From NCBI RefSeq assembly GCF_006716265.1, contig NZ_VFOS01000001.1, positions 434,001 to 498,000 on the forward strand: a stretch of 64,000 bases of DNA. Reading direction: 5' to 3'. The stretch is from Rarobacter faecitabidus. GTDB lineage: Bacteria > Actinomycetota > Actinomycetes > Actinomycetales > Cellulomonadaceae. The translations under genes were made by a program, and so were the position numbers. The notes beneath the pieces are model-generated. The model did not search any database. It was not told where the DNA came from and saw nothing but the letters and a program-made list of their open reading frames with translations. Positions 54,446 to 57,316 of the stretch are shown here, in pieces (position 1 is the stretch's first letter; each line of letters opens with the position of its first letter).

Positions 54446-57316
54446 TTAGTGGGCGGGGTGGCTGTAGCGGTGGGGGTCGGCGTCGAAGGTGGCCGCGCAG
54501 TGGGCGGAGCAGAAGGCGAACGTGACGCCGTCGTGCTCACGGGTGGCTGCGGCGGTGGCCGGGTCGATGCTCATCCCGCACACCGGGTCGGTCACGGTGG
54601 CGTTCTGGTGCGAGGCGTTGTCGTGGTGGTGGGTCATGGCGTTCTCTTCCTTGTCGTCGTTGGTGTTCTCGTCGTGGTGGTGGTCCGCTCCGAGCTCGAC
54701 CACGGGTTCGGTGGCTCTGGCCGGTGTCGTGATGGCCGCGGCCACGGGGGCGGGGTTGAAGCGGCGCAACCGGTTGGCGTTGGCGACGACCGACAGTGAG
54801 GACAGCGCCATGGCCAGGGCAGCGATGATCGGGCTGAGCAGCAGCCCGAAGGCGGGGTAGAGGACTCCTGCGGCGATGGGGATGCCCAGGGCGTTGTAGC
54901 CGAAGGCGAAGCCGAGGTTCTGGCGGATGTTGCGCATGGTGGCCCGGGACAAGTCCACGGCGGTGACCAGTCCGGACAGGTTCCCCGAGATCAGGGTGAT
55001 GTCGGAGGACTCGATGGCGACGTCGGTGCCGGTGCCGATGGCCGAGCCGACGTCGGCCTGGGCCAGGGCGGGGGCGTCGTTGATGCCATCGCCCACCATC
55101 CCCACGATCCCGCCGCCTGCTTGCAGGCGCTTGACCTCTGCGGCCTTGTGCTCGGGCATGACCTCGGCCAGGACCCGGGTGATGCCGACCTGGCGGGCGA
55201 TGGCTGCGGCGGTGTCGCGGTTGTCGCCGGTCATCATCACCACGTCCAGCCCGCGCGCCTGCAGGGCGGCGATCGCCTCGATGGAGCCGTCCTTGAGGGT
55301 GTCGGCCACGCCGATCACTCCGGCCGGGCGACCGTCCACAGCGGCGAGCATGGGTGTCTTGCCGTCCCGGGCGAGACGTTCGAGGTCGCCGGTCAGGGGT
55401 GTGGGGTCGATGCCGGCGCCGGTGAGCAGACGCTTGTTGCCGACCAGCACCTGGCGGCCCTCGACGAGGGCGCGCACGCCCTGACCGGTGATCGAGGTGA
55501 ACTCCTGTGGTGTGCCCAGGGCGTGGCCGGCGTTGGTGGCTCCGGCCACGATCGCGGCCGCGAGCGGGTGCTCGGAGTCGCGTTCGGCGGCGGCGACCAG
55601 GGCCAGCAGCTCGGTGTCGTCGAACCCGTCAGCCGGTAGCACATCGGTCAGCGACGGGGCGCCCTTGGTGATGGTGCCGGTCTTGTCCAGGACCACGGTG
55701 GTGAGCTTGTGGGCGGTCTCCAGGGCCTCGGCGGAGCGGATCAGGATGCCGTGGGTGGCGCCCTTGCCGGTACCGACGGTGATCGACAGCGGGGTGGCCA
55801 GGCCCAGGGCGCAGGGGCAGGCGATGATCAGCACCGCGACCGCGGCGACCAGGGCGAAGATCCCGGCCGGCGGCGGGCCGACCAGGGACCAGATCGCGAA
55901 CGTCCAGACTGCGATCACGATCACGGCGGGCACGAAGTAGCTGGCGACGTTGTCGACCAGGCGCTGGATCGGGGCCTTGGATCCCTGGGCCTCGCGGACC
56001 AGGCGGATGATCTGGGCGAGCATGGTGTCCGCACCGACCTTGGTGGCCACGTAGCGGAACGCCCCCGTCTGGTTGATCGTGGCACCGATGACGGTGTCCC
56101 CGGCGGCCTTGAGGACCGGGATCGGCTCGCCGGTGACCATCGACTCATCGATCGCCGAGGTGCCCTCGCTGACCTCGCCGTCCACGGGCAGCTTCTCTCC
56201 GGGGCGGATCGCGATCACGTCACCGACCTGGACGTCACCGACGCCGATCTCCAGCTCCTCACCGGCGCGGATGACCCGCGCGGTGCGTGGCTGCAGGCCG
56301 ATCAGGGCCCGGATGGCCTCACCGGTTCCGGCCTTGGCCTTCGTCTCCAGCAGCCGGCCCAGCAGGATCAGCGTCAAGATGACCCCGACGGCCTCGTAGT
56401 AGACCTCTTGGGCATCGGCGGGCAGCACGTCCGGGACGAAGGTGGCCACCAGGCTGAACCCGAAGGCGGCGATCGTGCCGAGGGTGATCAGGGAGTTCAT
56501 CTCGGCCGTGCGGTGCGAGAGTGCCAGCCACCCGGTGCGGTGGATCGGCCAGCCGGTGTAGACCATGACCGGGGCGATCAGCAGCAGCTGCAGCCACGGC
56601 TCCAGCAGCACCCCGGGCCACATCGCCCCGAACAGCTCATGGGCCATCACCGCCACCAGCACCGGGAAGGTCAGCACCGCGCCGATGATCACTCGCCGAC
56701 GCAGATCGGCGATCTCGGTCGCGCGCTCGGCGGCTTCCGCATCGACCGACTCGTCGTCGGCCACATGCAGCGCCACCGGACCACCCACCGCGGTGGTGGC
56801 AGTCTCGCCCCCGCTCTGGTGCTCGTGCGGAGCGCCCGTCACCGGCGCGATCTCCTCGGTCGGGCGTGGGGGTGCGATCACGCCACCACCGGTGGGTGGG
56901 TTCGAGGCTGCCGCAGCACCCGAGTCGGCACCACCAGCGGCAGCGGTGCCGGAGACCACGCGGACCTTGCCGTGCAGCATATTCATCCCGCAGGCGAAGC
57001 CGTACTCACCGACCTCCTGGGGGGTGAAGTCCACCGCCGTGGTGGCGTAGGCGGGCAGGGACTGGTTGACCTTGAAGTCGGGGAAGACCACCCGGGAGGA
57101 GCAGTCCCCGGACTCCTGACGGTCGAAGACCATCCGCACCGGGAGGCCCTGGACGACCTCGATGACGTCGGGGCTGTAGCCGCCCTTGACCGCCACGGTC
57201 ACGACCTGCACACCGCCATCGACCTCGGCGCGCCGGGACTTCTTCGGACCGAAGAAGTACCAACCGATCAGGGCCGTCAGCACCAAGGCCGCGGCCAGCG
57301 TGGCGAGGATTACCAT
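54446..57316 (-). CDS. Cupredoxin - P1B copper ATPase - YHS fusion
   Basis: The 956-residue protein starts [20 protein letters not shown] (AAGGAGCGAGGTC upstream). Residues 1-24 are a transmembrane anchor; 35-122 a cupredoxin domain with likely copper ligands C72, C109, M111, M113 and H115 ([12 protein letters not shown]); 123-200 a His-containing linker; 205-880 a P1B-1-type ATPase with TGE near 396, CPC at 500-502, phosphorylated D544 in DKTGT and the SEHPLA motif near 581. The last 63 residues are a YHS domain (DPVCGMS, FCSAHC). No HMA domain is present; cupredoxin and YHS replace it. It should export Cu(I) from the cytoplasm. A CsoR-like palindrome lies 45 bp upstream. Confidence 0.92.

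Follow-up and report, generated by a model that had tools for sequence, protein, structure and literature searches.

A copper pump with a cupredoxin in front, a YHS domain behind and no HMA domain raises the question of on which side of the membrane its end domains work and what they do for it. Such a gene lies on the minus strand of a 64,000-nucleotide stretch of Rarobacter faecitabidus DNA (contig NZ_VFOS01000001.1, positions 434,001 to 498,000; this whole stretch is called the window, and its own numbering is used below). The explanation that serves best as a whole, and that we consider fairly probable, is that the product exports Cu(I) from the cytoplasmic face with carriers of its own, with a possible internal start in the same frame giving a YHS protein as well. 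The parts of the gene to which the argument refers are these:

54446-57316, minus strand: the cupredoxin-CopA-YHS gene, an open frame of 956 amino acids plus stop, with Pfam and NCBIfam matches
57324-57332, minus strand: Shine-Dalgarno sequence of the main start, AGGAAGGAG, directly upstream of the ATG at 57316 (duplex energy -7.3)
57251-57313, minus strand: anchor helix TM0, residues 2-22, predicted N-out/C-in and followed by GPKKSRR (AlphaFold helix, flank charges)
56954-57238, minus strand: CupA-type cupredoxin, residues 27-121, predicted to be cytoplasmic (Pfam, PDB-chain matches, AlphaFold model)
57101-57103, minus strand: C72, counterpart of CupA C74, which is common to sites S1 and S2 (alignment to CupA)
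56972-56992, minus strand: C109-G-M111-N-M113-L-H115, counterparts of CupA C111, M113, M115 and the following His (alignment to CupA)
56768-56953, minus strand: linker between cupredoxin and core, residues 122-183, mostly predicted to be disordered, with a predicted local distance difference test score (pLDDT) below 50 at residues 126-185
54752-56722, minus strand: P1B-1 copper ATPase core, residues 199-855, with eight membrane helices (NCBIfam, phmmer, AlphaFold, Foldseek)
55811-55819, minus strand: CPC motif of the transport site, C500-P501-C502, invariant in 53 aligned chains
54638-54751, minus strand: linker between core and YHS domain, residues 856-893, rich in His and acidic residues (sequence)
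54458-54595, minus strand: YHS domain, residues 908-953, with ligands D910, C913, C936 and C940 (Pfam YHS, 40.9 bits against a cut-off of 30.3)

The pump and the side of its cupredoxin

Judged by its sequence, the gene product is a Cu(I) P1B-ATPase exporter with an N-terminal helix and cupredoxin and a C-terminal YHS domain, copper transport being its predicted activity. The core scores 602.6 with the NCBIfam copper-ATPase model TIGR01511 (cut-off 397), its phmmer alignment to Legionella CopA covers residues 199-853, and Foldseek aligns the modeled core with CopA 7r0g along 673 columns (TMt 0.88, rank 2), rank 1 being the E2P-state structure 4bbj (TMt 0.58). The Pfam scan of the 956-residue chain returned Cupredoxin_1 (residues 16-118, E 1e-14), E1-E2_ATPase (341-521), Hydrolase (539-755) and YHS (908-953, E 2e-10) and did not find HMA, and a motif search detected no CxxC anywhere in the chain. 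A preliminary description of this DNA, which spoke of a copper ATPase with cupredoxin ahead, YHS behind and no HMA, is confirmed by these scans, and its candidate ligands C72, C109, M111, M113 and H115 sit exactly where it had numbered them. That the three parts belong to one chain is far beyond chance, given the match of the cupredoxin to CupA (E 3e-25) and the recurrence of the layout in many genomes. A longer N-terminus starting at 57460 was considered and dropped, since both AGGAAGGAG at 57324-57332 and the homologous N-termini point to 57316; the homologues, whose starts were picked by script, begin at the same anchor helix as the product of that ATG.

When the N-terminal 123 residues are compared with PDB chains, CupA of Streptococcus pneumoniae comes first (4F2E/2MRY; E 3.4e-25, 91.8 bits) and the N-terminal domain of pneumococcal CopA second (4F2F; E 4e-13, 52.8 bits), and no other cupredoxin among these chains gave a sequence match at E <= 1. 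The ligands C74, C111, M113 and M115 of CupA align on C72, C109, M111 and M113. All 89 chains that fuse such a cupredoxin to the ATPase (near-identical loci included) carry CGMxM with a Cys 37 residues ahead of it, and 78 of the 89 have a His at the position of H115. Exported cupredoxins of the plastocyanin and azurin type hold type 1 copper with two His, a Cys and a Met. The conserved set found here, C72, C109, M111 and M113 with H115 in most chains, is not that one, and the extracytoplasmic location of plastocyanin and azurin is likewise predicted not to be shared by our N-terminal domain. According to passages of PMC5646241, site S1 of CupA consists of C74 and C111, and site S2 of C74, M113 and M115. 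Passages of the same paper and of PMC7558416 portray CupA as an intracellular chaperone, anchored in the membrane, from which CopA receives Cu(I) and which can reduce Cu(II) in vitro; both CupA and the N-terminal domain of pneumococcal CopA figure there as carriers or receivers of copper that feed the pump from inside the cell.

The preliminary description had raised the possibility that the cupredoxin lies outside the membrane, where it would take over exported copper, so that a single chain could join capture, transport and delivery. This we now regard as very improbable. The N-terminal helix could indeed serve as a signal anchor, and most known cupredoxins are extracytoplasmic. Three lines of evidence nevertheless lead us to read the domain as inside, and as an extracytoplasmic delivery site it fails at the level of prediction. 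Its closest relatives are described as intracellular. The charges that flank the anchor helix also oppose an outside location: the 12 residues behind the helix have a higher net charge than the N-terminal tail (means +2.0 and -0.8) in 79 of the 81 non-redundant N-termini compared, with two ties and none reversed. Common N-tails in these related N-termini are MNAADI or MSGADV, the helix then ending in WFFFGPKK or similar. Finally, a complete eight-helix core directly follows the cupredoxin, and in CopA and other P1B pumps the N-terminus of this core is cytoplasmic, so that a soluble domain directly ahead of a complete core should be cytoplasmic too. The AlphaFold model, which was built from 53 sequences (mean pLDDT 84.9; predicted template modeling score, pTM, 0.79), begins with a single helix (2-22), continues with a confidently modeled cupredoxin and a linker that is disordered at 126-185, and then reaches the core helices; such models are made without a membrane, and the topology of the cupredoxin is accordingly a prediction. 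Taken together, the domain is probably a CupA-type carrier tethered on the inner membrane face.

At the other end of the chain, D910, C913, C936 and C940 agree with the rule of an Asp plus three Cys that is proposed for YHS ligands in PMC4626032. The cytoplasmic position of this tail, which had been assumed from the outset, is supported.

A candidate internal start ahead of the YHS domain

The linker between core and YHS domain contains a further set of putative signals:

54644-54652, minus strand: internal Shine-Dalgarno-like sequence AAGGAAGAG, of moderate duplex energy (-5.0)
54635-54637, minus strand: putative internal start codon, M894 (family evidence)
54446-54637, minus strand: proposed free YHS protein, 63 amino acids plus stop, which scores as YHS on its own

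In the window gene this linker holds AAGGAAGAGAACGCCATG, and at the same place relatives often have caggaggacaccATG, aaggaggaagctATG, caaggaggatcacccATG or ccaggaggaacagccATG. The 63-residue product of the putative start would comprise the full YHS domain, with a Pfam YHS match of its own at E 2.6e-12.

The family-wide analysis started from 130 cupredoxin-ATPase chains, of which 99 have an in-frame YHS and 92 remained after repeated linkers were dropped. These 92 consist of a discovery set of 63 (set 1), from which the idea of an internal start arose, and of 29 later loci (set 2, L125 and above), which belong to the same phylum, have lineages in common with set 1, and were unexamined before both sets were scored with the best ATG per linker. 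A motif-blind choice, namely the first ATG in the 30 codons, was introduced later than this scoring. The energy thresholds, -7 for the best ATG and -6 for the blind one, are our own choice, the latter having been picked after both sets were seen, and the rank tests are free of thresholds; thinning to 63 chains removed relatedness among the rows only in part. A comparison of nucleotide identity, which covered chains preselected for the motif, is given no weight as evidence.

An in-frame ATG occurs at most 30 codons ahead of the YHS domain in 81 of the 92 chains, versus 22 of 92 when 30 codons of the cupredoxin-core linker are taken instead. With the blind choice, a Shine-Dalgarno energy of -6 or lower precedes 47 of these 81 ATGs (so that the signal is clear in 47 of the 92 chains) and 286 of 1726 control ATGs elsewhere in frame (Fisher 3.6e-16); the thinned chains give 32/52 and 190/1148 control ATGs, and the result was replicated in the thinned later loci (9/16 versus 42/327 control ATGs, p 9e-5). 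Rank tests gave p 6e-17 and 7e-11 for the best-ATG scoring of the two sets, and, with the blind ATG, 5e-24 for all 92 chains and 1e-6 in the thinned set 2. The mean energy at the blind ATG falls into a trough of -6.7 in segments starting at -15 and -12 and amounts to about -1 at -27 to -24, a sharpness that argues against mere purine-richness of the linker. Among the 72 chains with the motif at the best ATG, its GG falls into one reading frame in 45 and into another in 27, with Glu codons spelling the motif in one of these frames and Gly codons in the second. In two of the chains that lack the ATG, a different start codon stands at its position, GTG in L116 (-11.0) and TTG in L070 (-8.0).

Genes of this kind may, on the strength of these signals, make a free YHS protein of about 60 residues in addition to the exporter. 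The wider claim, to which we lean by a little, is that this is a widespread class of pumps encoding two proteins in one frame, of which one is a self-sufficient exporter that has its CupA domain in cis and ends in a YHS tail, and the other an internally initiated, free YHS metallochaperone, such that the ratio of tethered to diffusible carrier would be set by the mRNA. In the one plasmid record that was checked, a single long ATPase is annotated and the YHS match falls within it, the gene tables of PLSDB being incomplete.

Proposed mechanism, its rivals and its relatives

The mechanism that we propose would run as follows. A single helix with its N-terminus outside would anchor the CupA-type cupredoxin inside the cell near the pump, where cytosolic Cu(I) would be caught at C72 and C109 (S1), passed via C72, M111 and M113 (S2) to the eight-helix CPC core, and pumped out by the core with ATP. 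The C-terminal YHS domain would act as a second cytoplasmic metal-binding unit. The in-frame ATG of the linker, whose signal is clear in about half of the relatives and weaker in the others, including the window gene, would offer the ribosome a second start, so that one gene could yield both the full exporter and a free YHS protein of about 60 residues that carries or buffers cytosolic copper. Both the binding of copper at these sites and the order of its transfer are what we infer from the kinship with CupA.

A number of observations weigh against this proposal or parts of it. The site in the window gene reaches only -5.0, and 8 of the 17 other in-frame, non-start ATGs of the same gene score as low or lower; in the family, 34 of the 81 ATGs lie above -6, 11 of the 92 chains have no ATG there, and one genus (L158-L165) scores only -4.6 to -5.2. 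The energy profile shows a second, shallower dip (-3.9) at about -42. Given the encoded residues, synonymous codon choice adds nothing to the Shine-Dalgarno signal (62 single-ATG chains, Wilcoxon p 0.17), so that selection at the level of RNA has to be argued from the choice of residues, from the occurrence of two frames and from the two exchanged start codons. An in-frame YHS is absent from 18 of 85 complete chains, two of which (L078 and L103) have a masked or interrupted frame. As to the pump itself, export by S. pneumoniae CopA was unimpaired when residues close to its predicted Cu(I) entrance were mutated, according to passages of PMC7558416, which renders the route from cupredoxin to core uncertain. 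The same genome furthermore encodes another CopA-like ATPase with HMA (C2:164057-166171) and contains two open frames, of 136 and 104 residues, that match HMA, so that the window pump is not its sole copper route; two CsoR-family matches were also found.

Some of these points would be equally expected if the same cytoplasmic CupA-CopA-YHS exporter existed with its YHS domain only within the long chain, the Shine-Dalgarno/ATG pair being either the fossil of a YHS gene that once stood apart or a side effect of encoding acidic residues and glycine. We hold this to be possible, though doubtful. The synonymous-codon null is not exceeded, nothing sets the site of the window gene apart from other ATGs of that gene, and a plausible ancestor is at hand in L073, in which the YHS is a separate gene (8734-8922) that begins 33 nucleotides after the first base of the ATPase stop codon and has a Shine-Dalgarno energy of -10.9; this split gene is likely a picture of the state before fusion. 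Against this reading counts a linker that has otherwise diverged (around the ATG the commonest residue occurs in 25 of 52 chains at -3 and in no more than 14 of 52 at any other position that was examined) and yet has the ATG in 81 of 92 chains and the motif in two frames. The same holds for the 13 chains from loci titled Chloroflexota or Dormibacterota, 10 of which have an ATG at -7.4 to -11.0 and two of the remaining three a GTG or TTG, leaving L077 with none. Alternatively, the end domains could be regulators rather than carriers, the cupredoxin and the YHS domain sensing cytosolic Cu and releasing the pump from autoinhibition, as has been proposed for HMA domains. N-terminal metal-binding domains of other CopA pumps are dispensable for transfer and regulatory according to passages of PMC9470648, the title of PMC11970713 assigns a sensor role to terminal domains, and a YHS domain is the proposed copper sensor of an adenylyl cyclase in PMC4626032. 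We consider this unlikely, since CupA, the closest relative, is described in passages of PMC5646241 as a carrier passing Cu(I) to CopA, and since a separately made YHS protein would be hard to explain as a tethered switch.

The exporter with its own carriers, as preferred here, resembles several known systems in part. It shares with S. pneumoniae CupA (4F2E, 2MRY) and the N-terminal cupredoxin of pneumococcal CopA (4F2F) a membrane-tied cupredoxin with Cys...CxMxM that serves a P1B-1 ATPase inside the cell. Here, however, the domain resembles CupA (91.8 bits) more than it does the CopA domain (52.8), forms one chain with the pump and is joined by a C-terminal YHS, and the hosts are Actinomycetota, Chloroflexota and others instead of streptococci. 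Canonical P1B-1 CopA proteins (Legionella 3RFU, Archaeoglobus 3J09, 7R0G) have the same CPC core with eight helices and align over the whole core, whereas our chain has neither HMA nor CxxC and carries a cupredoxin in front and a YHS behind. The archaeal copTMA/CopM metallochaperones of the YHS/TRASH kind, which are found beside CopA, likewise pair a small metal-binding unit with the pump; TRASH/YHS copper proteins are paired with CopA in archaea, and copA and copM overlap in some archaeal genomes, according to passages of a review (PMC5328820). The difference is that the YHS described here is in frame with the pump and that its free form would need an internal start. Finally, one copA gene of E. 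coli gives rise to both the pump and a free copper carrier, CopA(Z) (passages of PMC6747150), but there by frameshifting and with the first metal-binding domain, as opposed to the proposed internal start at a C-terminal YHS.

Passages of PMC5646241 and PMC7558416 describe CupA as present in only a few streptococci, and those of a survey (PMC5552934) report CupA-like proteins without the ligand motif in some Rhizobiales. As our chains indicate, CupA-type domains with the complete motif occur commonly in Actinomycetota, Chloroflexota and other titled groups, where they are fused to copper pumps. Should ribosomes indeed use the internal start, copA genes would have a second, independent route to a pump plus a free carrier beside the frameshifting of E. 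coli, and annotation would miss a small protein. Whether a copper pump that has a tethered carrier still needs a diffusible one could then be tested directly.

Distribution and genomic setting

A pattern scan of 84,980 species genomes yielded 235 stretches with a relative of the cupredoxin, of which 80 loci were kept; loci from relatives of the host were added. Of the 89 chains that join cupredoxin and ATPase, 85 end inside their locus (the four cut chains were left out), and 67 of these 85 carry an in-frame YHS, near-identical loci included. The fusion, for which a database survey had been proposed, is real but common; the idea that it is rare was dropped, and its novelty is smaller than had been assumed. 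With the cupredoxin as query at E <= 1e-10, matches occur in 37 genomes of the order and in 31 of the phylum, out of 396 in each case, the genome studied here and free cupredoxins being counted. Among the named hosts of cupredoxin-ATPase chains are Cellulomonas, Serinicoccus, Kocuria, Bifidobacterium, Streptomyces and Mycolicibacterium, and metagenome-assembled genomes titled Chloroflexi, Dehalococcoidia and Dormibacterota. No description of a cupredoxin-ATPase-YHS chain was found in the literature searched, which consisted of passages, titles and the starts of abstracts, most subscription papers lying outside it.

The layout is subject to variation. Three scanned chains titled Dehalococcoidia or Chloroflexi (L066, L073 and L112) have an HMA between cupredoxin and core, and two of them also an in-frame YHS, which brings the kinds of copper-binding domain to as many as three per pump; the same CPTC motif recurs in long linkers of further Chloroflexota-titled chains. 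Kocuria carniphila (L055:5932-9126) has two cupredoxins in tandem before the ATPase. In six other genomes of the phylum (L187-L192; G423, G432, G206, G269, G190 and G061), a CupA-type cupredoxin match directly follows, or overlaps the end of, the match to a copper ATPase on the same strand, apparently a split form of the same partnership. The ATPase match is split in two by an insertion in the cytoplasmic P/N-domain region in L019 (G063) and L107. A metagenome-assembled genome titled Acidobacteria (L041) contains a chain whose open-frame coordinates are identical, and whose sequence is nearly identical, to those of Serinicoccus L040/L042, which reflects either transfer or mis-binned actinobacterial DNA.

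Upstream of the pump gene and in the same direction, the window contains the following:

57582-57827, minus strand: small DUF2933-like membrane protein (19.8 bits, just below the cut-off of 21)
57824-58102, minus strand: small open reading frame with an N-terminal hydrophobic stretch (by eye) and no Pfam family in the scan
58192-59349, minus strand: sensor histidine kinase (Pfam)
59346-60065, minus strand: response regulator (Pfam)
60269-60901, minus strand: DUF305/CopM-family metallochaperone (Pfam and NCBIfam)

These neighbors vary: among the 80 named loci, many of which have short flanks, relatives of the histidine kinase are present in 22, of the response regulator in 20 and of the DUF305 protein in 11 (E 1e-5, either strand), so that the two-component pair cannot be taken as a fixed partner of the pump. 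A stand-alone CupA was not found in the genome, in which PF13473 matches one other place, C3:22173, within an open frame of 971 residues. From 54386 to 60060 the window shares 93% identity with loci of Microbacterium hominis and Miniimonas arenae, and just past the 3' end of the ATPase gene lies a two-ORF insertion sequence (53103-54376; HTH_Tnp_1, then HTH_21/rve_3), whose transposase gene at 53426-54376 adjoins the end of the shared stretch at 54386. The identity and the adjoining transposase gene suggest that the copper genes form a mobile island. Beside this island, at 61311-62718 on the plus strand, are a weakly thioredoxin-like gene (Thioredoxin_3 below its cut-off) and a membrane protein that appears CcdA-like by eye and has no Pfam match; relatives of the two genes occur at 5 and 7 of the 80 named loci.

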